Shown piece after piece: positions 44,991 through 59,832 of a stretch of 64,000 nt of DNA. The stretch is from Streptomyces sp. NBC_01551 (GTDB taxonomy: Bacteria; Actinomycetota; Actinomycetes; Streptomycetales; Streptomycetaceae). Each line of letters opens with the position of its first letter. Position 1 is the stretch's first letter. Below the pieces are notes generated by a model. It saw nothing but the letters and a program-made list of their open reading frames with translations, was not told where the DNA came from and made no database searches. The translations under genes and the position numbers were made by a program. The DNA lies in NCBI RefSeq assembly GCF_026339935.1, contig NZ_JAPEPX010000001.1, positions 1,842,501 through 1,906,500 of the forward strand. The letters run 5' to 3'.

Positions 44991-46253
44991 TCACGCCTGC
45001 GGCGACCTCGCGTCGTACCGGGCGAAGTCGCGCCAGCGCAGGGCCAGCAGGAGCAGCACCAGTACGCATCCCAGCCCGCCGCCCGTGATCGCCACCGCCG
45101 GGGAGGTCAGGTCGGCGGTGGTCCCGGCGAGGAAGTCACCGAGCCGGGGCCCGCCCGCGACGACCACGATGAACACGCCCTGCAGGCGCCCGCGCATCTC
45201 GTCCGGGGTCGCGGCCTGCATCATCGTGGAGCGGAACACCATGGAGATGGTGTCGGCCCAGCCCGCCAGGGCCAGGAAGAACAGCCCGAGCCACAGGTTC
45301 CGGGTGAGCCCGAAGACGGCGATGGCCAGCCCCCAGGCGGCCACGGAGATCAGGATCGCCAGCCCGTGCCGGCGGATCCGGCCCTGCCAGCCGGAGAACA
45401 GCCCGCCCAGCAGCGCACCGACGGCGGGGGCCGCCACCAGAAGGCCGACGGTCTTGGCGTCGCCGCCGTACCAGAGCACGGCGATGGCCGGGAACAGCGC
45501 CTTCGGCTGGGCCAGCACCATGGCGGCCATGTCGGAGAAGAAGGTCATCCGGATGTTCGGCCGGGTGCCGAGGAAGCGCAGTCCGTCCAGTACCGAGGCC
45601 CGCCCGCGCTTGTCTCCCTCCCGCTCGGGCAGCATCGCGGGCAGCCGCCACACCGCGTAGAGCGCGGCGCAGAAGGTGACGGCGTCGATCAGGTACGCCG
45701 CCTGGTAGCCCCACCAGCCGACGATGACCCCGCCGAGCACCGGGCCGAGCATCGTCCCGGAGGTCATGGTCACGGAGTTCAGCGCGTTCGCGGCGGGCAG
45801 CTGCTCGGCCGGCAGCAGGCGCGGGATCATCGCGGAGCGGGCCGGCCCGTTGAGCGCCCCGCAGACCGCCTGGAGCGCGACGACCGAGTACAGCAGCCAG
45901 ACCCGGTGGTAGTCGAGGAGCGCGGCGCCGGCCAGCGCGATCGACAGCGCGGCGAGACCGGTGGAGCTGTAGAGGCCCAGCTTGCGCCGGTCGACGGTGT
46001 CGGCGATGGCCCCGCCGTACAGTCCGAAGGCGACGAGCGGGACGAGCGAGAAGAGGCCGACCAGTCCGACGGAGAAGCTGGACCCGGTGATCTCGTAGAC
46101 CTGGAGCGAGATCGCGAGGGCGGTCATCGCCTGGCCCATCCAGGAGATGGTGCCGCCGAACCACAGCCGTCGGTAGTGCGGGGAGGTACGGAGCGGGGTC
46201 AGGTCCGCGAATATGCGCGGCCGGGGGCGGGTTTGCTCGGAAGTACCAGTCAC
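44991..46253 (-). CDS. MFS transporter, EntS/DHA3-like
   Basis: This 420-aa protein has 12 predicted helices. Motif A-like GLYGGAIADTVDRRKLGLYSS lies between TM2 and TM3, and PARSAMIPRLLPAEQLPAANALNSV is typical of the MFS_3/EntS group that exports siderophores or macrolides. The tail is short and basic. The start is GTG 46253, with TATCAT (46259-46264) on the minus strand just upstream. No regulator is adjacent, so the substrate is unknown. Confidence 0.9.
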   Translation of the reverse strand: MTGTSEQTRPRPRIFADLTPLRTSPHYRRLWFGGTISWMGQAMTALAISLQVYEITGSSFSVGLVGLFSLVPLVAFGLYGGAIADTVDRRKLGLYSSTGLAALSIALAGAALLDYHRVWLLYSVVALQAVCGALNGPARSAMIPRLLPAEQLPAANALNSVTMTSGTMLGPVLGGVIVGWWGYQAAYLIDAVTFCAALYAVWRLPAMLPEREGDKRGRASVLDGLRFLGTRPNIRMTFFSDMAAMVLAQPKALFPAIAVLWYGGDAKTVGLLVAAPAVGALLGGLFSGWQGRIRRHGLAILISVAAWGLAIAVFGLTRNLWLGLFFLALAGWADTISMVFRSTMMQAATPDEMRGRLQGVFIVVVAGGPRLGDFLAGTTADLTSPAVAITGGGLGCVLVLLLLALRWRDFARYDARSPQA

Positions 46254-46467
46254 ATCGGATGATAACCGGCGGCCCCGGCGGGCCCCGGGCGGCCGGTGGC
46301 CCGTTCACGCTCCCGCAACAGTCGTCCCACGCGGACCGGCGGCCCCAGCCAGGGGGCACCCTTGCCGGTAACTCGCCATTATCACCTGACATTTGACTGA
46401 ATCGACGTGCGCTCCTCGCCTCTTGTTCAGCTCATGATGAAAAGACTCGTATGTCCAGGGAGGCGCA

Positions 46468-47613
46468 GTGATCGAACCTGGCACCAGCACCACGAGCACC
46501 AGCTCCCCGACCGACACGGTCCCCCTCACCGTCGGGGTCGAGGAGGAGTTCCTCCTCGTCGACGCCCGTACCTTCCGGGTGGTCCCGGCCGCCCCGCTCG
46601 TCCTCGACACGGCCGCCGGGCTTCCGCAGGAGCTGCACCCCGAGGGCACCCGCTACCAGGTGGAGATCTCCACCCCGGTCGCCGACTCGGCCATCACCCT
46701 GCGGGCGGAGCTCGCCGCACTGCGGCGGACCCTCGCCCGGGCGGCCCGCACGCACGGCTGCCGACTGCTGGCCGCCCCGTCGCCGGTCGTGGCCGTGGAG
46801 GGGCCGCTGCACCTGACCGACGACGAGCCGCGCCAGCGCGAGCAGCACCGGCGGTTCGGCGCGCTCACCGACACCCTGGTCAGCTGCGGCCGGCACATCC
46901 ACATCGGCACCCTCGACGTGGACACGGCGGTCGCGGTGTCGAACCGGGTCAGGCCGTGGCTGCCCACGCTGATCGCGCTGGCCGCCAACTCCCCGTTCTG
47001 GGGCGGCCGTGACACGGGTCACGCCAGCTGGCGGGCGATGGCCTGGTCGGGCTGGCCGTCGGCGGGGCTGCCCCCGCACTTCACGTCCACGGCCCACTTC
47101 CGGCGCTCGGTGCAGACCCTGCTCGGCTCCGGGGCGGCCCTCGACACCAAGATGGTCTACTGGGACCTCCGGCCGTCCGGGCACTGGCCCACGCTGGAGA
47201 TCCGGGCTCCGGACATGTCCCCGGCCATCGACACGGCCGTCCTCCAGGCGGAGCTGGCCCGCGCCCTGGTGGCGGTGGCGCTCCGGGAGATCGCCGAGCA
47301 CCGCCCGGAACCCGCGCTACGGGACGACGTGCTCCGCCTCGCCCGGTGGCGGGCCGCCCACGACGGGCTGGAGGGCTTCGGCCTGGACCCGTACACGGGC
47401 GCGGAGCTCCCGGCGGCCGACCTCGCGGAGGCCCTGCTCGACCACGTCGCCCCGGCACTGGCCGCCGCCGGCGATCTCGACCACGCGGCGAAGACGATGG
47501 GCGACCTGCTCCGCGACGGCTCGGGCGCCCACCGCCAACGCGCGGCCTTCGCCCGCCGCCAGGACCTGACGGACGTCCTGCGCCACCTGACGGACGAAAC
47601 GGAGAACTTCTAG
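46468..47613 (+). CDS. Glutamate-cysteine ligase family 2 (YbdK-type carboxylate-amine ligase)
   Basis: This 381-aa GCS2 enzyme has the GVEEEFLLVDARTFRVVP N-terminal motif, the Mg/ATP-binding QVEISTPVAD, and a late THEIR-like CGRHIHIGTLDVD. YbdK-type proteins make gamma-glutamyl amides with weak glutamate-cysteine ligase activity; in actinomycetes related enzymes work in thiol or ergothioneine pathways. GGGAGG lies 6 nt before the GTG at 46468. It converges on the defence operon, with a hairpin between. Confidence 0.9.
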   Translation: MIEPGTSTTSTSSPTDTVPLTVGVEEEFLLVDARTFRVVPAAPLVLDTAAGLPQELHPEGTRYQVEISTPVADSAITLRAELAALRRTLARAARTHGCRLLAAPSPVVAVEGPLHLTDDEPRQREQHRRFGALTDTLVSCGRHIHIGTLDVDTAVAVSNRVRPWLPTLIALAANSPFWGGRDTGHASWRAMAWSGWPSAGLPPHFTSTAHFRRSVQTLLGSGAALDTKMVYWDLRPSGHWPTLEIRAPDMSPAIDTAVLQAELARALVAVALREIAEHRPEPALRDDVLRLARWRAAHDGLEGFGLDPYTGAELPAADLAEALLDHVAPALAAAGDLDHAAKTMGDLLRDGSGAHRQRAAFARRQDLTDVLRHLTDETENF

Positions 47614-47627
47614 CCCGCTCCCCCTGC

Positions 47628-47655
47628 GGCCGCAGGCTCACCCTCGCCTGCGGCC
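47628..47655. terminator. Hairpin between the GCS2 gene and the defence operon
   Basis: A perfect 10-bp stem (GGCCGCAGGC, 47628-47637 with 47646-47655) with an 8-nt loop lies between convergent stops. It marks the 3' boundary of the operon. Confidence 0.7.
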
Positions 47656-47683
47656 TTCAGGGCCGTTCGGAACGTGCTGCGGC

Positions 47684-49036
47684 CTACCCCCGGAGAAAGG
47701 CGTGGATCGCCGAGGCGATCGCCGTTCCGAGTGGGATGGGAACGGCGTTCCCGATCTGGGTGGCGATCTCGTTCTTGCTCCCGCACCAACGGAACGTCCT
47801 GGGGAATCCCTGGATGCGCGCCGCCTCGTAGTGCGTGATCGGACGCAGCTCCGTGGGGTGGAGGTAGCGGCCCTTCTCGGGCTTGAAGAATTCCGTCCGA
47901 ATAGTCACGGACGGAGCACTCGTGCGAAGTCGACCCATGACGTCGCCCGTTCCGTTGGTGTGCCTGTCCCAGCTCTCCGTCGAGAGGTACTCGACAGGGG
48001 TCGTCACACCCGGCGGATTCGGCACGTCGAAGACCTGGACATCTCCGCTCTCCTCGACCGTGAACCACTTTCCCCGCAGGTCCTTCCGATTTCCGCCCGG
48101 CGGAATGGCCTTGTATCGGGCTATCGAAAGCGGCTTGGGATTGCGGCCGATGTGCAGCTCGGTCGTGCTGAAGGTGCCCGCGATCTCGGAGTCGATCTCG
48201 GCGATGCGCTTCTCCCTGTTCGGGAGTTCGGTCCCCCGGATAGAGAGCTTCTTCGATTCGGCAAAGACACTGCCGACGGGCTGCCAATGGCCGACGGCGC
48301 CATCAAGCCCGTCGAAGGCCTGCACGCCGTTACCCTTGGCGCTCTTCGGCGGCTGCTTGTGCGTCGCGACCGGATAGGACATGCGTCGGTCCTGAACCGC
48401 ATCACGTCGGACCCCGATGACGATGGCGCGCTTACGAGCCTGGACGGCTCCGTGGTCCGCCGAGTTCAGGACATAGCGCTTGTTCTTCACCTCTGCCTTT
48501 TCGCCGAGCTGGTGCCCGGGCGGATCGACCAGCACGTAGTCCTCCAACTGGCCGCCCTCCCCGACCTCCCCGAGCAGGTTGAGGAACTCGTCGGATTTCA
48601 CGAAGTCCACGACGTTTTCGATCACGAAGACCTTGGGTCGGATCGTGCGGACGACCCGTACGTATTCCTCCCAGAGGCGATTGCGTTCCACGCCCTTCTT
48701 GTCCCGGTTCAGGGCGGAGAATCCCTGACAGGGCGGACCGCCGACCACCACGTCCACGTCGAGTTCGGCCGCCGTCGGCTCCCACTCCTCGATCGGGCCG
48801 ACGTGCACCCGCGCCTGCGGCAGGCTCGTGTCGGTCCGGCCGCTGCCGAAGTTCGCCGCGTAGGTCGCGGCGGCGGCCCTGTTGTGCTCGACGGCCGCGA
48901 GGCTGTGGAAGACCGGCCCCCCGTCGTTCGCTCCGGCGGGCCGGAATTCGTGGAACCCCTGGGTGAAGCCGCCACAGCCGGAGAAGAGATCCACGACGGT
49001 GATCGGGTCGGAGGTGTGGGAACGGGGTTCGCGCAT
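47684..49036 (-). CDS. C5 cytosine DNA methyltransferase, intact, of the defence operon
   Basis: This 450-aa enzyme has all main C5 motifs: I FSGCGGFTQGF (18-28), IV GGPPCQGFSALN with catalytic Cys103, VI IENVVDF (Glu140), VIII QARKR (199-203) and X QIGNAVPIPLG (427-437). A variable target-recognition region of about 180 residues lies between VIII and X. It should methylate a specific site and protect host DNA from the operon's nuclease. The ATG at 49036 is 10 bp after the pseudo-methylase stop; a longer frame upstream lacks support. It is last in the operon. Specificity cannot be read from sequence. Confidence 0.93.
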   Translation of the reverse strand: MREPRSHTSDPITVVDLFSGCGGFTQGFHEFRPAGANDGGPVFHSLAAVEHNRAAAATYAANFGSGRTDTSLPQARVHVGPIEEWEPTAAELDVDVVVGGPPCQGFSALNRDKKGVERNRLWEEYVRVVRTIRPKVFVIENVVDFVKSDEFLNLLGEVGEGGQLEDYVLVDPPGHQLGEKAEVKNKRYVLNSADHGAVQARKRAIVIGVRRDAVQDRRMSYPVATHKQPPKSAKGNGVQAFDGLDGAVGHWQPVGSVFAESKKLSIRGTELPNREKRIAEIDSEIAGTFSTTELHIGRNPKPLSIARYKAIPPGGNRKDLRGKWFTVEESGDVQVFDVPNPPGVTTPVEYLSTESWDRHTNGTGDVMGRLRTSAPSVTIRTEFFKPEKGRYLHPTELRPITHYEAARIQGFPRTFRWCGSKNEIATQIGNAVPIPLGTAIASAIHAFLRG

Positions 49037-49046
49037 AGGGGTGATC

Positions 49047-50876
49047 CTAGTCGTGGAGAGCCGCTGCGATGGCCCGCCCGACGGCGGCCGCGAGCGGCGG
49101 GGGCATGGCATGGCCGATCTGCCGATACCGGGACGTCTTGCCGCCGGAAAAGCGCCAGTCCTCCGGGAAGGCCTGGATCAGTGCGGCCTGGTCCAGAGTC
49201 AGTCGCGGCGAGCCGTCCTCGGGGAATGCGGAGTCGGGGACACTGTCTCCGAGGCTGGTCCCGTTGACCCGAAGGGCGGCCCATGCCTTCTTGCTTCCCG
49301 TCGGCCCCAGGTCGGCGCCGCCCCGTCGCTCCGAGCCCCCGACTAGAGCGGGCGCGATCCGATCGGCCTCCTTGGTCCATTGCGCCGCCCCCGGCCACCC
49401 GCCGCCGGCCATGGACGGGCCGAGGACGTCGCCGACCGTCGGAGGAACCTCGTGGTCCGGCTCGGGCCAGACGAAGCCGGCGGCGTACTCGTGGCGCAGG
49501 GCCACGAGGAAGCCACTGTTTCGGTTCTGCGGCACTCCGAAGTCCGCGGCGTTCAGGACGCGCCACCGCGGCTGATATCCCATGCTCCGCAGCTCGGCCT
49601 CGATCCACTGGCGCTCGTCGGCGAAGTTCTCGCCCTCCACCAGTTCCGGCAGGTTCTCCAGCAGGACGGCCTTCGGCCTTATCCGGAGCGCCAGTTGCAC
49701 GGCGCGGTTCAGGACGTTCCGTTCCTCGTTGTCCTCGGCGCGGCCGACGGTGGCGGAGGACTTCACCCGTGGCAGTCCACCGCTCACAAGATCGACGCCG
49801 AGGATCTCCGGCCGGTCGTCGGGCCGAAAGTGACTCAGGTCCATGCAGATGACGTCCCAAGCCGGCCGGTTGAGGTCGATCGTGAAGCACGCATCGGCCT
49901 TGCTGTCGATCAGGACGACCGGATCGAATCCCGCGCGCTCGAGGCCGAGGGCTTGGGCGCCCGCGCCCGCGCAGATCTCCACCGACGTGAAACGGCGAGG
50001 GGTGGCCGGGACCCGGCGATCCTGTCGGGGCAAGGAGGGAGTCGAGGACGCTCCGGGTTCGGACGAGGCGGCTGCCACGGCGCGGCTGCCCGCATCCGCC
50101 GCGGACTCCGCTCTCACCCCGCCGACACCGCGCTGCGCCTCGACGGATTCCATGGCCACCCTGCGCAGCTCTTCGTCCAGGGCGTCTTCCTCCACCCCGT
50201 CGAAGAGGACGAACGGCGCCAGCCTGAGCAGCCTCTTGAGAAAGTCGCGCAAGGTGTCACGCTCGGTGACGGAGGTGAGGTCGAGCCCACTCCAAACCCG
50301 CAGGATCGCCCGGACGAGATGAGCGCTCCCGCCCAGAGCCGCCCGACGTGCGTAAATCTGGTCGAACGCCGCCTCCCCGAGGATGTCGAGGGCGTCGTAC
50401 GGCTCAGGGCGGTCGGGGGAATGGACGAGTTGCGCCCTCCACCACAGTCGCCCCAACACGTGCCGGGTCAGATCGGTGCCGAGGACTCGGTCCCCCGGCG
50501 GCTTCGGATAGCGCCAGAAGGCGACATCGGGCAACAACACCAGGGCAAGGAAGGCCCAGACATCGGGCGCGGCCGCCTCGGCCGGCACCATGTCCATCTC
50601 CTTGTGCAGGAGGACGGCCAGCTTCAGGTCGAACTGCGCCCTGCGGGCCCGGTCGCTTTCACCCGGAAATCCCGCCTGCTCCGCCAGGCCCAGGACGAGT
50701 TCGCGCAGTTCGCGAAGTCGAGCGGGCGATACCCGGTCCCCGCCGGTGGCCACGTAGACCGCCGCGTCGTGGGCATCGGCCACGCGGCCGGTCAGCTCCG
50801 GGATCTCCAGTCGCCCGTAGCCCTCGAAGAGGGGCTTGGCCTGCGCGGAGAGCAGCCGAGGGTAGAGGAAACTCAT
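49047..50876 (-). CDS. DUF6339 domain fused to a catalytically degenerate C5 methyltransferase
   Basis: The 609-aa protein has an N-terminal part (1-240, MSFLYPRLLSAQAKPLFEGY start) that fits DUF6339, a family found in methylase/nuclease operons, then a linker, then a C5-methylase fold (from about 297). AdoMet motif I is intact (VEICAGAGAQALGLERAGF). Motif IV reads GGLPRVKSSA: the catalytic Cys is Arg370 (CGG codon at 49767-49769). VI is ENLPELVE; VIII is QNRNS (second Arg lost); X is QIGHAMP. Base flipping and methyl transfer should fail. The stop of the preceding gene overlaps (TGATG), so ATG 50876 or GTG 50879 is the start. It may guide or regulate the intact methylase. Confidence 0.9.
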   Translation of the reverse strand: MSFLYPRLLSAQAKPLFEGYGRLEIPELTGRVADAHDAAVYVATGGDRVSPARLRELRELVLGLAEQAGFPGESDRARRAQFDLKLAVLLHKEMDMVPAEAAAPDVWAFLALVLLPDVAFWRYPKPPGDRVLGTDLTRHVLGRLWWRAQLVHSPDRPEPYDALDILGEAAFDQIYARRAALGGSAHLVRAILRVWSGLDLTSVTERDTLRDFLKRLLRLAPFVLFDGVEEDALDEELRRVAMESVEAQRGVGGVRAESAADAGSRAVAAASSEPGASSTPSLPRQDRRVPATPRRFTSVEICAGAGAQALGLERAGFDPVVLIDSKADACFTIDLNRPAWDVICMDLSHFRPDDRPEILGVDLVSGGLPRVKSSATVGRAEDNEERNVLNRAVQLALRIRPKAVLLENLPELVEGENFADERQWIEAELRSMGYQPRWRVLNAADFGVPQNRNSGFLVALRHEYAAGFVWPEPDHEVPPTVGDVLGPSMAGGGWPGAAQWTKEADRIAPALVGGSERRGGADLGPTGSKKAWAALRVNGTSLGDSVPDSAFPEDGSPRLTLDQAALIQAFPEDWRFSGGKTSRYRQIGHAMPPPLAAAVGRAIAAALHD

Positions 50877-51772
50877 CACGCAACCTCGAAGATTCTGACC
50901 GCCGCCTGGAGATCCGAGGCGAACAGCGCGGGCGCCTGAAGTCGACGCAGTCGGACATCCGTGATCGATTGCTCCGGGAAGAGCCGGTCGAAGAGACCCA
51001 GCAGAGTGGAGCCGAGCGACCCCTCGGGAAAGTCCGCCTCATCGACGAAGTCGTCGCTGTTGAGCCCGTGCTCGATCATCACGCGCGCCACGTCCGCGTA
51101 CACGGCGGAGAGCACCACGCGGTCGACCGGCCGGGGCCGGGCCGCATTCCGGAAGGCGCTGGTCGTCACCGTATTGCGCTCGTTGACGAGCAACAGCAAC
51201 GACCCCATGGTGGCGCTCTCGAGGCCACCGGTGATCTGCAGGTGCCACGCAGCCCCTTCGGGAAACGACGTGCGGGCAAAATCGATCACCGCCATGGGGT
51301 ACTGAGGCGCATCACCCTGGAGTCGTACCGACGCACGGTCGCTCCACAGCACCGACCCTGCACGACGCGGCGCGGCCGGTCGTGCGGAGTCGAGCCGGTC
51401 GGCCAGGAGGAGTGCCGTGTCGAGACGGACCACGCCGCCCAGGTCCGCACCACGGAGACGGACGTCGAGCGGGACGGAAACGACCCCGGAGTCCGTCAGC
51501 CGCACCTGTCGCGCAGGCCCGCTGAGCCTGGACCCGGTGGCGGTCCACACCGTGGACAACATGAGCGGCGCGTCGGCGGGGAGGCCCGACCCGGAACGGG
51601 CACGATCCAGATCGACCCGCACGACCCTGACCACGTGCAGGTCCATGCCGTAGTCCCAGTCCGGCAGGGCGTCCGAAAGCGGCAGCTCGCCGTCCTCGAC
51701 CACGCGGCGCCAGCCCTCGGCGCTCACGACGTCCTCGGGCGGAACGCGGTACGGCAGAACACGCCTGCTCAC
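50876..51772 (-). CDS. Unrecognised protein of the defence operon
   Basis: This 298-aa soluble protein has no recognised domain, signal peptide or membrane segment. The sequence looks mixed alpha/beta, with WDYGMDLHVVRVVRVDLDRA near the start, LQITGGLESATMGSLLLLVNERN in the middle and FEVA at the end. The first third could be beta-rich, and the last third helical. It overlaps the MORC stop (GTGA) and the DUF6339 gene start (TGATG), so it is made in step with them. A role as adaptor or DNA-recognition subunit is only inferred from its place. GTG 51772 is the start. Confidence 0.8.
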   Translation of the reverse strand: MSRRVLPYRVPPEDVVSAEGWRRVVEDGELPLSDALPDWDYGMDLHVVRVVRVDLDRARSGSGLPADAPLMLSTVWTATGSRLSGPARQVRLTDSGVVSVPLDVRLRGADLGGVVRLDTALLLADRLDSARPAAPRRAGSVLWSDRASVRLQGDAPQYPMAVIDFARTSFPEGAAWHLQITGGLESATMGSLLLLVNERNTVTTSAFRNAARPRPVDRVVLSAVYADVARVMIEHGLNSDDFVDEADFPEGSLGSTLLGLFDRLFPEQSITDVRLRRLQAPALFASDLQAAVRIFEVA

Positions 51773-53706
51773 GGACCCGTCACCGCCTCGACACGGACGC
51801 CGATCTCGGTCATCGTGTCGGCCGCAGGCCTCACGAGAGCTCGCCAGACACTGTTGCCGCCCTCGATCACGCAGTCCTCCGGCTCGTGGAACCGCTCTTC
51901 ATGGTCCTGCCAACCGATCAACGTCGGCATGCTCGCGCCCACGGGCGGATCGGTCTCACGAACCCCGGCCCCTGGGAGCACGACGGCCAGTTCGATCCTG
52001 ACCCGTTGCTGCCCGGGCACCGGCAGACGGAACTCCTGGACTAGCACAGAGTCGGCAGCGCGATCCTCGTAGTAGGGCTCGCCGACGTACTCCACCCGTG
52101 GTCGGCGGCGCGGTGGCGTCGTCGTGTCCCCGGCAGCGGGTGCGCCTGGCCGTGGACCGTCGCCGACCGCAGTCGAGGACGACCGGCCCTCCAGGGATGG
52201 TGAGGAGCCTGCCGCCGGCTTGCGGCGCCGCGGGTCAGGGACGGTCGTGCTGCCGGGCTTCCCGTAGTCGGTCGCCCCGCCGATGCCCCAGGCACCTCCC
52301 ACCAGCCCGGAAAAGTGGCTGCTCGCCGCTCCGAGGGCAACGCTGCTAGCACCGGGTCGGACAACGCCGTGCAGGCTGAGGAGACCCTCGAGTGCCTCGT
52401 CTATGCGGGTGAACGTCGTCTTCACGAAAGTGCTCTCCGGGTACGAGAGCGACTGGGGATGCCACGCGTCGTGTGTGGGAGGCTCGGCCTTCGCGTAGAC
52501 CTCGTCCATGCTCACGTCGGCGCGAAAGACGCCCGCGTATCCCTGGTTCTCGCTCGGCGGCTTCGGCCCCCGGCGATAGGTGACGACAAGTTCGGCGGGA
52601 CGCATGAGACACACGTGGTGGACAAGATCCTCGACGTCCATCAGTCGAGAGGCGCGCGTCGGCTCCAACGGCGGCAGGACCCGCTTGACCAGTCCGAGGC
52701 GACCCAGATACCGCTTGGGACTCTTGCACTCCAACCGGCTTCCCCCGGGTCCCACCATGTTCTCGTACGCGGCGACGAACAAGTTGAGCGGACGCGTCTG
52801 CCGAGGGTCCGGCACCGGCTGTGGAACGCCGTCGCAGGACACGGAGAAACGCATGGCCGACGGCTCGCCACCGACGGAGATCATCTTGGGCCACAAATGC
52901 CAGGCGAGCGAGTCGGCCAGGTACGAGGTGGCCTCCATCGGCTCGAGTTCGTCGAGGTCCGGGTCGACGACGACGATCGTCGTACCCGTCTCGGCCGGAC
53001 CGAACGGCTTGAGTCCCAGACGGTGCGCGACGGACTCGGCCTCAGGGCCGACAAGCGGCTCCACCACGTCGCCGGACGTGTCGCCCCACCAGTGTCGCCC
53101 CGTGTAGCGCCGACTCCCCCCGGGCTCGGCCCCGGTGTAGCTCTTGTACAGCGTGCAGCCGATGAGCCGCGTCTCGGCGCCCTGCGCGGTCCGGCACCGC
53201 GAGTGCACCAGGACGGTACCCGGACGGGACAGGAGGAAGAAGATGCCCTTGCCGAAGCCGTACGTCCCGCCGCCCAGGGGTGTGTCCCGGGGCTCACCGA
53301 TGTTGCGGATGAAGTTCACGAAGTCTCGGTCGGGCCCCACCGCCGCGTCGGCTCGGGTGGGCCCGCCCAGACCTCGTGTGCCTCGGTCGGACACGGCGAG
53401 CACGCGGATCGAACCCTGCTTGAGGGTGTCCCGCAGGGGGAAACGCTCCGCTCCGGCCGGCGCACCGTTGAGGAGCATGCGACGCCAGGCCTCGGCGTGC
53501 CCGGGGCCGACCGTCCACAGGTCGATCCCGTAGTCGATCGGTGCGGAGGAATCGAGCGGGCGCGCGTCCCAACTGTTTTGCGCCGACTCGCGCACCAGGA
53601 TGGTGAGGAGGTCCAGCTCGGGGCGACCGAGCTGATTGCGGATGCCTTCGGCGGCGCTCGCGCCTTCCGGTGGGTAAGGCTGTGAGTACCAGGACGGCTG
53701 GATCAC
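51769..53706 (-). CDS. MORC/MutL-like GHKL ATPase of the defence operon
   Basis: The 645-aa protein has GHKL motifs in order: N-box ILVRESAQNSWDAR (Glu40, Asn44, Asp47), G1 SDRGTRGLGG (106-115), and the ATP-lid GGGTYGFGKG (145-154). No C-terminal MutL endonuclease motif is visible; residues about 505-545 are a Pro/Ser/Thr-rich linker. Prokaryotic MORC-like proteins of this kind were proposed to remodel or clamp DNA in restriction-type systems. GTG 53706 overlaps the nuclease stop (GTGA), and its own stop overlaps the next start the same way. The preceding longer frame runs through the nuclease gene and is not used. Confidence 0.88.
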   Translation of the reverse strand: MIQPSWYSQPYPPEGASAAEGIRNQLGRPELDLLTILVRESAQNSWDARPLDSSAPIDYGIDLWTVGPGHAEAWRRMLLNGAPAGAERFPLRDTLKQGSIRVLAVSDRGTRGLGGPTRADAAVGPDRDFVNFIRNIGEPRDTPLGGGTYGFGKGIFFLLSRPGTVLVHSRCRTAQGAETRLIGCTLYKSYTGAEPGGSRRYTGRHWWGDTSGDVVEPLVGPEAESVAHRLGLKPFGPAETGTTIVVVDPDLDELEPMEATSYLADSLAWHLWPKMISVGGEPSAMRFSVSCDGVPQPVPDPRQTRPLNLFVAAYENMVGPGGSRLECKSPKRYLGRLGLVKRVLPPLEPTRASRLMDVEDLVHHVCLMRPAELVVTYRRGPKPPSENQGYAGVFRADVSMDEVYAKAEPPTHDAWHPQSLSYPESTFVKTTFTRIDEALEGLLSLHGVVRPGASSVALGAASSHFSGLVGGAWGIGGATDYGKPGSTTVPDPRRRKPAAGSSPSLEGRSSSTAVGDGPRPGAPAAGDTTTPPRRRPRVEYVGEPYYEDRAADSVLVQEFRLPVPGQQRVRIELAVVLPGAGVRETDPPVGASMPTLIGWQDHEERFHEPEDCVIEGGNSVWRALVRPAADTMTEIGVRVEAVTGP

Positions 53707-54728
53707 GCGGCTCCCTGCAACAGACTCGCGACCGTCCGGGAGGCCTCGGACGGTTCCATGGGAAGGGGGACCGCGCCCGACAGGTCGACGGTGTAGGAGA
53801 CGTCCAGCACGGCCACGGGCACGCCCGCCGCCGTGAGCGCCTGCGCGGTCAGTCCGGGGAACTCCGGGCCCACCCGGTACCACCGTTCCTCGCGTACGAC
53901 GAACCAAGTGTCCTGGTACCTCTCGGCGTCCGTCACGCGATATCCGACGCGGGCCAGCGAGTCGAGAAGGGCACTCTCGTCGTCGCACAGACGCAGCAGT
54001 CGATCGACGAGCCCGGGGACACTCTCCCCCACGGTGGGGCCGGCCGCGCGCCGCAGCCCCAGCCATACGAGCGACAGTTCTCCGCCCGTGGGCGCTTCGA
54101 GCTGGTCAAGGCCGTGTATCCGGGCTCGCCTGCCCTCATCGACCGTGCTCGTCTTCACCTCGACGGCATCGGTCGCACCAGAGAAGTCGTGGCGGTGGCC
54201 GTCGGGACCCGACCACAGGCGGTGTGCGCTCGGGTCCAGCTCCAGCAGCCGGTGCAAAACGGTGAGTTCGCCGAACAGACCCGCGAGTTGGTCCGGCCCC
54301 AGCAGCGTCCCCTGCGTGCGGAAGAGAGACCGCCACCGGTCCAACACGCGGTACAGCGCTTTGACCGGGTTCTCGGGCAGGTCCTCCGCGGCACTCATGA
54401 TGTCGACGCACAACTCGGTGAACAGATCACCCAGGTCGTCGCGCAGGCAGGAGAGGTCTGCGTAGTACTGATACGTGTCCTCGTCCTCCAACGGCCGCTT
54501 GCGCAGACGCAGACCCGGGCCGTCGATACCGGCGCGCAGCCGCCTGTCGGAGGGGATCGGTATCAGGATGTGGCGTCGGCCCTCGTAGTCGATCCCGACC
54601 GCGAGCGGTCCATGGACAACGTCGACCGGAAGCGGGGCGACACGCAGACGCCCGTCGCCCGTGGGCGCCTCGGCCTCCAGCCCTGCCCAGCTCTGCGCCA
54701 TGACCCGACGGAAAGTCTCCTCGCTCAC
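53703..54728 (-). CDS. PD-(D/E)XK nuclease of the defence operon
   Basis: This 341-aa protein has the core of the superfamily: GLFGELTVLHRLL (Glu154) and HDFSGATDAVEVKTST (Asp181, Glu190-x-Lys192). That fits the 'PD-(D/E)XK motif protein' family seen in methylase-Z1 operons. It is the most likely DNA-cutting subunit. The N-terminal 100 residues and C-terminal 120 residues have no named domain. The GTG at 54728 overlaps the Z1 stop, and its stop overlaps the MORC start. The codon bias is slightly weaker than in flanking core genes. Confidence 0.88.
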   Translation of the reverse strand: MSEETFRRVMAQSWAGLEAEAPTGDGRLRVAPLPVDVVHGPLAVGIDYEGRRHILIPIPSDRRLRAGIDGPGLRLRKRPLEDEDTYQYYADLSCLRDDLGDLFTELCVDIMSAAEDLPENPVKALYRVLDRWRSLFRTQGTLLGPDQLAGLFGELTVLHRLLELDPSAHRLWSGPDGHRHDFSGATDAVEVKTSTVDEGRRARIHGLDQLEAPTGGELSLVWLGLRRAAGPTVGESVPGLVDRLLRLCDDESALLDSLARVGYRVTDAERYQDTWFVVREERWYRVGPEFPGLTAQALTAAGVPVAVLDVSYTVDLSGAVPLPMEPSEASRTVASLLQGAA

Positions 54729-57286
54729 GTGTCCTCGCCCTCGAGGAGACTGAACACGTCCTCCTCTTCAAGCAGACCCATGGGGAGCTTGGCGGAGATG
54801 TACTTCTCCACGGTGCTGTCCTTGCCCACCGACTCGGGGAACACGAGTCCGACGCCGATCACATGTTCTTCGGCCCCCAGCGCCTCACGTGACCCCTCCT
54901 TGGAGGGGTGCGGCTCGGAGTCCTTGTCGATCGGGTACAGCACCAGGAGACCGGTGTCCGGCGCCTGGGCCTTTCGTAGTTCCTTGATGCCCGCCTCGTT
55001 GAGCCGTGACGTCTCCCCGGTCAGGTCGACGGCCGCATCGCGGCGGCTCATCAGCGTCTTGATGTCCACCGTGCCGACCTTGGCACCCTTGCTCTTGAGC
55101 CGGGCACGCGTGATGCGGCCGACGGTCACGTCGGGCCCAAAGGTGTAGTCCTTCTCCCCGGCCGGATTGCCGATGACGGCGATGTTCCACCGCCCCAAGG
55201 AACCGGCGTTCGAGACCCGCTTGCGGATGTAGCCGATGATCAGGTCGGCGTCGTTCTCCGGGGAGTCCTCGTGGAACTTGTAGGTCTGCAGGAAGTCGAC
55301 GACCGCCCCGTGAGGTACGTCGCGGAAAACGTACCGGCCGTCCTCAGGGCATTCATCGGCCCGCACGGAAGTGGCCACCGAGGCCTCGATCAGCGTGTGC
55401 GCGGCCTCGGCATTCCGGCGCAGCCACGCCGCGTCGGTCTGGAAGTAGTGGGTCTGCACGCGCCGGCCGCTGTAGGAAGAGGCAGCTGTGACGGCGTCGC
55501 GCATTTTCGCGGCCGCGGTCACCCTCAGGGACGGATGTGTCCGCAGACGGACGGCGAAGGTGAGGGGGTCCTCGCTTTCGGTCAGGTAGACGTCGATGTC
55601 GCGCCGCATCTCGGTCTCCACCGTGGCGAGGTGACGGAACCACTCGGCGAGCTCGTCCGTCATCCAGATCCTGGGCAGATCGGCGTAGCCGTTGCGGAAA
55701 CCGAACCAGCGACCCATCTGCAGCAGGGTGTCGTAGGCGGAGACGGCGCGGACGAAGTAGCTGACGGAGAGACCTTCGAGCGTGAGACCGCGGGAAAGGG
55801 TATTGCCGCCGACCGCGATGGCGACGACCGGACCGTTCTCGTAGTCGAGGCGGTCTTCACTGCTGGAGTTGTCCATGATGACCCGGCAGTCGTCCAGGAC
55901 TGCCGGCAACACTTGGAGCAGTTCGTCGAACAGCACGGGCTTCTCGCCGAACTCCTCGGCCGGGACGCGCGCGGTCTCCTCTTCCCACAGTCGTCGAAGT
56001 CCTTCGACGGCTGTGGTGTCCGTCAGGGACTGGGCAACACGCTTGCGCAAGTGCAGCAGAGGCCCCCTGAAGCTGTTGTGCACGGAGGTGTTGACGCTGG
56101 TGTGGATCAGCATCGTGTTGTGCGGGTTTCCCGTTCCGCGCACCCGCCGAGCTGCTGTGACCAGCCAGAAATACTCGACGGCGCGTCGCAGCGTGTCAGT
56201 GATCACGGGCTCGAAGCCTTCGACCTCGTCCCGCGTCATGGGACGCACGCACGGCACGTCATCCTCTGGAACGGACCTGATCATGTCGTGACCGTCGTCG
56301 ACCTCGTTCGGATCCTCACCGTCGAGTGCGTAGCGGCCGAACAGGACCTCCGTACCGAAGTGTCCCTTCGGCTTGGGCAGGTTGACGACGAAGTGCTCGG
56401 GATAGAGGTCCTGGCTGCTCGGGTCGATAAGGAGGTTCGCAAAGGGGGAGGCCGTGTAGCCCACATAGGCGGACTTCGGCAGAGACTTCATGATGGACAG
56501 GATGAGCGGGTTGATCGATTTCGTCGCCACCGTCGCCTGGTCGGCCTCGTCATCGATGATCAGCGCCGGGCAGTCCTTGAGGTAGTCCGAGGCGCTCTCC
56601 AGCCATCGGGACAGCTTGCGCAGCACCGTGGCGTTCTTCTTGACCACGCACAGGACATGGGTGTTGTTGCTGCTGCCGAAATAGGCGGCCGGGTTCTGCA
56701 GCGGGGTGAAATCCTTGTCGAGCCCCGTCAGCTGGGACCACCGCGAGGGGTTCGGTTCCACCAGCTGCTGGACGAGCCGCGCCTGGGTTTGGCGCCGGAG
56801 GCCGTTGTGGATGCCGGCGAGGACGATGAACAGCTTGTAGCCGCGATCCGCTGCCTTCGCCATGACCGAGGTGAAGCTGGTCGTCTTGCCCGACTGAACG
56901 TAGCCGACGACCAGGCCCTTCGTGGTGAAGGCCCGTTCCTTGGGGTGATTGAGGAGGGAGGTGATCCGCGTGGAGGAGTCGTCAAGGCTGCGGATCGCGG
57001 GCTCCTGTGGCCAACCGTCCTTCCGGAGCAGTTCCGCGATCGCCGGCCAGTACTTGTCCCCCGGCTGCGGCCCTGTGTACCAGGTGTCCCGGTTGCCGAG
57101 GACCACGGACTGCGGCTCCTCGAGCTCCTTGATCCGGATCGTATCGGCCTCGTGTCGCTCGCGGATGCGCTGCATGACGTCCTGGCTGACGCCGAATGAC
57201 TCCAACCGCTTCACTGCCTCAACCGGAGGGAAACGATCGAGAAGGGCCACGAACGTCTCGTAGTTGTCGTTGAACTCATCGGTCAT
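54725..57286 (-). CDS. Z1-domain superfamily 2-like ATPase of the defence operon
   Basis: This 853-aa protein opens the operon. It shows Walker A GYVQSGKTTS (128-137), Walker B/DEAD-like IIDDEADQ (243-250), and the Z1-specific GYTASPFANLL and LLQMGRWFGFRNGY blocks. Z1 proteins are helicase-like ATPases tied to MORC ATPases, nucleases and C5 methylases. Here it likely moves on or melts DNA for the nuclease. ATG 57286 was chosen for the MTDEFNDNYE start; its Shine-Dalgarno is weak. A GTG at 57424 would add 46 basic residues. Its stop overlaps the next start (GTGA). Confidence 0.92.
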   Translation of the reverse strand: MTDEFNDNYETFVALLDRFPPVEAVKRLESFGVSQDVMQRIRERHEADTIRIKELEEPQSVVLGNRDTWYTGPQPGDKYWPAIAELLRKDGWPQEPAIRSLDDSSTRITSLLNHPKERAFTTKGLVVGYVQSGKTTSFTSVMAKAADRGYKLFIVLAGIHNGLRRQTQARLVQQLVEPNPSRWSQLTGLDKDFTPLQNPAAYFGSSNNTHVLCVVKKNATVLRKLSRWLESASDYLKDCPALIIDDEADQATVATKSINPLILSIMKSLPKSAYVGYTASPFANLLIDPSSQDLYPEHFVVNLPKPKGHFGTEVLFGRYALDGEDPNEVDDGHDMIRSVPEDDVPCVRPMTRDEVEGFEPVITDTLRRAVEYFWLVTAARRVRGTGNPHNTMLIHTSVNTSVHNSFRGPLLHLRKRVAQSLTDTTAVEGLRRLWEEETARVPAEEFGEKPVLFDELLQVLPAVLDDCRVIMDNSSSEDRLDYENGPVVAIAVGGNTLSRGLTLEGLSVSYFVRAVSAYDTLLQMGRWFGFRNGYADLPRIWMTDELAEWFRHLATVETEMRRDIDVYLTESEDPLTFAVRLRTHPSLRVTAAAKMRDAVTAASSYSGRRVQTHYFQTDAAWLRRNAEAAHTLIEASVATSVRADECPEDGRYVFRDVPHGAVVDFLQTYKFHEDSPENDADLIIGYIRKRVSNAGSLGRWNIAVIGNPAGEKDYTFGPDVTVGRITRARLKSKGAKVGTVDIKTLMSRRDAAVDLTGETSRLNEAGIKELRKAQAPDTGLLVLYPIDKDSEPHPSKEGSREALGAEEHVIGVGLVFPESVGKDSTVEKYISAKLPMGLLEEEDVFSLLEGEDT

Positions 57287-57857
57287 AGCCTCGACCGCCC
57301 CCGGTTCTCGCTCGTCTTGGCCGGTGGGGCCCCCGGGACCCTTCCGCCTCCACGGTTGTGTTCGGCGAACGACGTGGGCGCCCCGAAGAGCGCGCACCGG
57401 CGTGGCACCCTCATGCAACGTCACACATTATTGAGTTAATCCGTCTCGCCGCACAGGTTCTCAGCCATGATCCACCACTCAGGGTGGCCATGGGCATGAC
57501 GCGAATCAAGAAATATCTGCTGGAACAGGACAAAGGGTACCGATGGTTCGGAGGCGAGTGTCTCGGGCACTCCACCAACGATTCGGGCACGGGGCGCGGC
57601 CGCCGGGCAGTCAACGGCATCGTCGAGTACCGCGTCGCCGGCGACCCCTGCGGGGCCCGTCGCAGGACACGGCGACCGGGTGGCCGAGGCCCAGCGAGGC
57701 GGGTGCCCAGCGCGCACGCACCGCGCGCGTGCGGGGCCCGGGCCGGGCGCGCAGCATGGAAGTGTCGCCGTTCCACCACCGCCCGGCCGGGGCGATCGCC
57801 GCAGCCGACGCCGGTCAGCTGCCGGGGCGGGACGCCTTCGTTCGCCTGGAGCCCCGT
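57287..57857. other. 571-bp region upstream of the defence operon and the CinY-like gene
   Basis: No convincing gene is seen; several frames are open but none has a ribosome-binding site or known motif. An A/T-rich palindrome-like element, ATTATTGAGTTAAT (57427-57440), stands out. On the minus strand it contains CAATAA, which could be the -10 of the operon, about 140 bp before Z1. The right half (57600-57850) is GC-rich and structureless. Confidence 0.5.
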
Positions 57858-58832
57858 ATGTCCCCCCACCCGCTCCCGGGCCCGCCCAAGGCCGCCTCCG
57901 CGGCCTTCGCAGCCGTGCTGGCAGCCGCCCTGGCCGTCGTACCGGGCGGCCCTGCCCACGCCTTCACCGGCGCCAACCACGAGGAGATCACCCGGGCCGC
58001 GCTGCCCTGGGATCCCGTCACGCTGACCGCGATGGCCGACGCCCACGACGGGGCGATCAACGCCAACGACCGCCGCCCCTACTTCGACATCGGCCCCCTG
58101 CACTGCGACAACGCCGACTACCTCGCCCCCCGCCACTCCGCCGGCTACCCCCGCACCCGGGACGAGGCCTCCACGGAGCTCCTCGCCTGCGTCCGTACGT
58201 CCGTCGCCCGCTTCCGCGACGCGGTCCGGGCCGCCGACGGCCTCGTCGACGCCGACGGCACGGTGCGCGCTGGCGAGAGCGACCTGTCCTCCCCCTGCAC
58301 GTGGGACGAGAAGCCCGGGCGCGCCAAATGCGCCGTCCTCGAACAGCTCGGCCGCGGCTGGCACCAGATCGAGGACTTCTACGCGCACTCCAACTGGAGC
58401 GACCGGCCCGCCGCCGGTCCGATCGGCCTCGACAACCCGCCCGGCCTGGGGCGTACGGACCACCCGCCGTTCCTCGACATCCGCCGCTACAGCGCCATGG
58501 ACGACGCCGACTGGACCCGCGAGGCGCGCGAGCGCATCCCCGCGGACCTCACCACCGGCTGCTACCCCGACATCGACTCCACCGGCGTCAAACCCGCCGA
58601 CTGCGACGGCCGCGTCGCCCACACCCGCACCCTGAACAAGGACACCGTCGCTTCCCCGCGCGCACGGACGGGCGACAATTTCCGCCGGGCGACGGCCGGG
58701 GCCACCGCCGAACTCACCCGCCAGTGGAACGACTTCAAGGCCGAGCTGCTCACGGCGTACCCCGACCACCGGCGCGGCGCACAGATGATCTGCGCCCTCG
58801 TCCACGACGCCCCGGCCGCGGCCTGCCCCTGA
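57858..58832 (+). CDS. Secreted CinY/Het-C-like protein
   Basis: This 324-aa protein has a signal peptide (cleavage near AHA, about residue 37). The mature part shows NHEEITRAALPW, HCDNADYL and GWHQIEDFYAHSNWSDR. The H-D-x-x-A-HSN pattern resembles Het-C-type and zinc-dependent phospholipase C-like proteins, including CinY of Streptomyces lantibiotic producers. Several His/Asp could bind Zn. Six Cys may form disulfides. No lantibiotic genes are nearby. ATG 57858 is chosen because only from here does a signal peptide arise. It ends 4 bp from the convergent amidotransferase. Confidence 0.75.
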   Translation: MSPHPLPGPPKAASAAFAAVLAAALAVVPGGPAHAFTGANHEEITRAALPWDPVTLTAMADAHDGAINANDRRPYFDIGPLHCDNADYLAPRHSAGYPRTRDEASTELLACVRTSVARFRDAVRAADGLVDADGTVRAGESDLSSPCTWDEKPGRAKCAVLEQLGRGWHQIEDFYAHSNWSDRPAAGPIGLDNPPGLGRTDHPPFLDIRRYSAMDDADWTREARERIPADLTTGCYPDIDSTGVKPADCDGRVAHTRTLNKDTVASPRARTGDNFRRATAGATAELTRQWNDFKAELLTAYPDHRRGAQMICALVHDAPAAACP

Positions 58833-58836
58833 CGCG

Positions 58837-59670
58837 TCAGGCCGCCTGAGGAGCGAAGGGGAACAACGCGTCCGCGCCCGGCCGCACGACGCCGTAACTG
58901 CTCTCCGGTACCTGGTTCCAGGCGCCGGGCAGATCGCCGAGGGGCTCGGAGACGACGAGGCGGGTCTCGTCCGAGACCTCCTGGAGGAACGCCATGTCGG
59001 GGTGGAGCCTGCGCAGGCTGTCCACCCGGCTGCTGTAGAACAGCGACCTGGATTCGCCCTTGCTGGAGTAGCGGAAGGCCCAGACGCTCTCGCCGTCGGT
59101 CACGGCCACCGTCATCTGCAGCGGGAACTCCACGCCCCGCTCGTGTCCGATGCGCTCCACGACTCCGGCCATCCGCGCCACGGCGCCCGGCGGGTCCTGC
59201 TCCAGGCCGAAGGTGACGGCGAGGTAGAACATCACCTCGGAGTCCGTCGTTCCCTCGATGTCGGTGAACAGCGCGGGGTCGACGAGCAGGCACAGTTCCC
59301 GGCGCATCAGGTGGAACCCGGAGATGGCCCCGTTGTGCATCCACAGCCAGCGGCCGTGCCGGAAGGGGTGGCAGTTCGTCTGCTGCACCGCCGTTCCGGT
59401 CGACGCCCGGATGTGGGCGAAGAACAGGGGGGACTGCACGTGATCGGCGATCTCCCGCAGGTTGCGGTTGTTCCAGGCGGGCCCCACGTCCCGCAGGACC
59501 GCCGGAGTACCGGCGTGATCCGTGTACCACCCGACGCCGAAGCCGTCGCCGTTCGTCGTCTCCACACCCAGTTTCGAGTGCAGGCTCTGGTCGATCAGCG
59601 AGTGCGCCGGCTTGTACAGGATGGTGTCGAGCAGAAGGGGTGAACCCGAGTACGCGAGCCATCGGCACAT
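58837..59670 (-). CDS. Class II glutamine amidotransferase (YafJ/EgtC-like)
   Basis: This 277-aa protein starts MCRWLAYSGSPLLLD; after Met removal Cys2 is the N-terminal nucleophile. Other marks are NGDGFGVGWYTD, FFAHIRASTG and MHNGAISGFHLMRRE. Such stand-alone Ntn domains hydrolyse gamma-glutamyl bonds (EgtC cuts gamma-glutamyl-hercynylcysteine sulfoxide). The ergothioneine genes are not here, so this is probably a paralogue. ATG 59670 is unambiguous since Cys must follow Met. Confidence 0.9.
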   Translation of the reverse strand: MCRWLAYSGSPLLLDTILYKPAHSLIDQSLHSKLGVETTNGDGFGVGWYTDHAGTPAVLRDVGPAWNNRNLREIADHVQSPLFFAHIRASTGTAVQQTNCHPFRHGRWLWMHNGAISGFHLMRRELCLLVDPALFTDIEGTTDSEVMFYLAVTFGLEQDPPGAVARMAGVVERIGHERGVEFPLQMTVAVTDGESVWAFRYSSKGESRSLFYSSRVDSLRRLHPDMAFLQEVSDETRLVVSEPLGDLPGAWNQVPESSYGVVRPGADALFPFAPQAA

Positions 59671-59759
59671 GAGTCATCACCTGTTCCTCGTTGTACCGGC
59701 AGTCTCATCGTCGGCCCATCCCACGGTGATCGCCACGCAGGCGGGAGGCGCACACGCAA

Positions 59760-59790
59760 GTGCCCCGCCCGGGAAGCCCGGGCGGGGCAC
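59760..59790 (-). terminator. Terminator after the CAU-anticodon tRNA
   Basis: A perfect 14-bp stem (GTGCCCCGCCCGGG, 59760-59773 with 59777-59790) with a 3-nt loop lies 42 bp past the tRNA. Confidence 0.8.
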
Positions 59791-59832
59791 GAGACCGGCC
59801 GGTCGCAACGTTTCTGCGGACCAGCCCTTCGG

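Follow-up and report, generated by a model that had tools for sequence, protein, structure and literature searches.

A conserved C5 methylase homologue with arginine in place of its catalytic cysteine in a restriction-like paraMORC2 operon of Streptomyces

In a 64,000-nucleotide stretch of Streptomyces sp. NBC_01551 (contig NZ_JAPEPX010000001.1, positions 1,842,501 to 1,906,500; hereafter the window), six minus-strand genes (47684..57286) form an operon resembling a DNA-restriction system directed against viruses. One of its products fuses DUF6339 to a homologue of C5 cytosine methyltransferases in which Arg370 replaces the catalytic Cys of motif IV, and its sequence suggests a retired enzyme, now perhaps doing another job such as DNA reading. 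More broadly, we regard as evenly balanced the view that an entire actinobacterial C5 methyltransferase family exchanged this Cys for Arg in a single event and has been retained specifically to read DNA, as a subunit (a pseudoenzyme methyl reader) in the DUF6339/paraMORC2 arm of a multi-gene restriction system that has two architectures. A preliminary description of the window had reported both the operon and a 'dead methylase', and these observations are confirmed here; its overall interpretation is partly supported, the label 'MORC' being corrected to paraMORC2.

The replacement extends across the family. Arg stands in 120 of the 120 best homologues, and in 239 of 240 when the best 120 of 577 and the best 120 of 4670 are pooled (the second 120 include two fusions); lacking the motif IV Cys, the fusion was rejected as an active C5 DNA methyltransferase. 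At least 40 of 150 sampled genomes carry the Arg form (66 matched at 1e-60; where the motif was read, 40 had Arg and 15, including G530, had Cys). Much of the enzyme is otherwise preserved: the Arg-form rows keep S-adenosylmethionine (SAM) motif I, the ENV asparagine (99/99), Q-x-R (99/99) and the Glu position (Glu in 95/99, Asp in 4), while motif VIII has lost its second Arg in all 99. Two Cys columns are also kept, being Cys in 19/19 and 9/19 of the Cys-bearing comparison rows, among which L139 and L161 represent one gene and L039 is partial (the tree took in 17 of these rows, leaving out L139 and L039). The recognition loop is conserved across the Arg-form family, and the fusion protein is predicted to adopt the C5 methyltransferase fold. 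The best PADLOC profile for the pseudo-methylase domain is DruM2|DruM (8e-98; 9e-119 for the Cys-bearing relative L033), the motif reading GGVPC in the 19 Cys-bearing rows and GLPR in the window clade.

Gene neighbourhoods were compared in 74 loci, of which 73 were found with the operon's predicted Ig-like subunit as bait and one (L007) was added; the subunit is present in 74/74 because it served as bait, and the counts are not independent because some loci are near-copies (e.g. L076-L080). Loci L087-L090 were inspected apart and lie outside these counts. Fusion of the pseudo-methylase to DUF6339 was seen in 37 of the 74; L063, where the Arg-form gene is split in two, is counted among eight standalone cases. 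In L031, L033, L039, L043-L046, L051 and L055, DUF6339 carries another C-terminal domain, of weak DUF3320 similarity, in the slot of the pseudo-methylase. Broken second methylase genes occur in L063 (Arg form), L039 (Cys-bearing) and L044 (a piece without class).

The preliminary description called one of the operon's two ATPases 'MORC-like GHKL', and the GHKL motifs are indeed present. In the passages covered, Iyer, Abhiman and Aravind (2008; PMC2292703) define MORC by a GhXhhpXXRhl motif in the S5 domain, and paraMORC2 by GHKL motifs together with an ExxxH located C-terminally within that domain. The MORC pattern has no match in the window protein, for which MORC membership was rejected, and matches in only 1/74 locus proteins; the window protein has EPPTH at residue 408, and the Glu and His of such EPP[TS]H-type motifs are each present in 74/74. 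Thus by its motifs the protein appears to be a paraMORC2, and 'MORC' should be read accordingly. In the one locus of the second architecture tested (L137), a helix-turn-helix-GHKL protein has EPPEH, and an MzaB-like protein bears the MORC motif GFYLYRNDRLV.

DNMT3L serves as partner of DNMT3A, and the pseudo-methylase could likewise form a heterodimer with an active C5 methylase, steering or stimulating modification outside restriction. We consider this possible, though clearly less probable than DNA reading: among 45 loci of the same kind as the window's, all but L019, which is truncated by its contig end, have a PC-bearing methylase alongside the pseudo-methylase (44 of 45), as is the case in 18 of 19 loci of a further Arg-form set; the methylase is often the next gene, and the predicted fold is kept. 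However, the pseudo-methylase is fused to DUF6339 in 37 of the 74 loci and never to that methylase, its sequence is similar whichever of two methylase classes adjoins, and one orphan copy (L122:9431-10471) has none of the partner genes within the 20 kb fetched.

Chromosome maintenance or repair acting on 5-methylcytosine marks, rather than defence, seems to us improbable, although Vsr is present in 57 of the 74 loci, GHKL ATPases resemble MutL (Iyer et al., 2008), and neither plasmids nor viral contigs yielded the bait. Still more doubtful is that the Arg form remains an enzyme with other SAM-dependent chemistry on DNA; the retained SAM motif I, Asn, Glu and Q-x-R would allow it, and structure 8yf3, by its title a C5-carboxymethyltransferase, shows other chemistry in this fold, but no fresh conserved Cys takes the place of the lost one (the two kept Cys columns also occur in Cys-bearing rows) and motif VIII lacks its second Arg. 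A decaying pseudogene domain, as the split L063 copy might suggest, is hardly credible, since Arg is conserved family-wide, as are the motifs, the predicted fold and the recognition loop.

The operon is of a kind already described, as the preliminary description indicated in citing a proposed restriction-type association of such genes: it corresponds to the third operon type of Iyer et al. (2008), here with GHKL in its paraMORC2 form. The word 'inactive' is absent from that paper's text as covered, and its passages covered mention no dead methylase, DUF6339 or subunit of the predicted Ig-like kind. The operon is also probably the type I form of a putative defence system predicted by Miller et al. 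(2022; PMC9523054), whose three core genes match it, the other three being unnamed in the text consulted; the section on type I, as covered, makes no mention of a dead methylase. PADLOC candidate PDC-M33 is another likeness: PDC-M33A matches the window GHKL protein, the predicted Ig-like subunit has no match, and PDC-M33A and C match the GHKL and DUF6339 proteins of L137 (1e-21, 4e-11). No paper that names PDC-M33 came up in one full-text search.

MZA (mzaABCDE) was rejected as an identity: PADLOC and NCBIfam profile scans find MzaC and MzaD relatives far below equivalog cut-offs (391 of 1500 and, for the nuclease, 89 of 420 bits), and MzaB (MutL-like) and MzaE (AIPR) had no match in the four non-methylase proteins, the scan covering operon proteins only. 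In MZA, mzaA encodes a sigma factor (PMC9523054). The nuclease keeps its E, HD and ExK residues in 72/72 proteins. Pfam and defence profile scans gave no significant family for the remaining subunit (50876..51772), whose AlphaFold2 model (mean predicted local distance difference test score 70.9) matches only generic Ig-like folds.

Features of the operon, in window coordinates.
Feature	Position	Strand	Evidence
Operon gene	54725..57286	-	
PD-(D/E)XK nuclease, DUF4420 (MzaD-like)	53703..54728	-	Pfam DUF4420 6.7e-50; motif residues
GHKL ATPase, paraMORC2 type	51769..53706	-	GHKL motifs; ExxxH; PADLOC PDC-M33A 6.4e-8
Subunit with predicted Ig-like beta-sandwich and helical C-terminal part	50876..51772	-	moderate-confidence model
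DUF6339 fused to pseudo-C5-methyltransferase, catalytic Cys to Arg370	49047..50876	-	
Arg370 codon CGG at catalytic-Cys place of C5 methylases	49767..49769	-	
PC-bearing C5 cytosine methylase, presumably active	47684..49036	-	DNA_methylase 8.4e-46; motif IV VVGGPPCQGFSALN

A glutamate-cysteine ligase family 2 gene adjoins the operon (46468-47613, plus strand). From the left flank to the tRNA-Met/tRNA-Asn side (46232-59831) the interval measures about 13-14 kb here and about 35, 19, 24 and 44 kb in relatives G012, G015, G004 and G005; given this variation, it looks like a tRNA-side hot-spot.

The preliminary description held the exact combination to be uncharacterized; no conserved, monophyletic, DUF6339-linked pseudo-C5-methylase turned up in our searches of open-licence papers. 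Many Arg-form proteins are labelled 'DNA cytosine methyltransferase' in public records, but, judging from their motifs, cytosine methylation by the known route is not to be expected of them. Should they indeed be DNA readers, this would be a restriction system in which a retired modification enzyme recognizes the target, it would help to explain how paraMORC ATPases of prokaryotes reach DNA, a question connected with the eukaryotic MORC proteins, and methylome predictions would be corrected for many Streptomyces.
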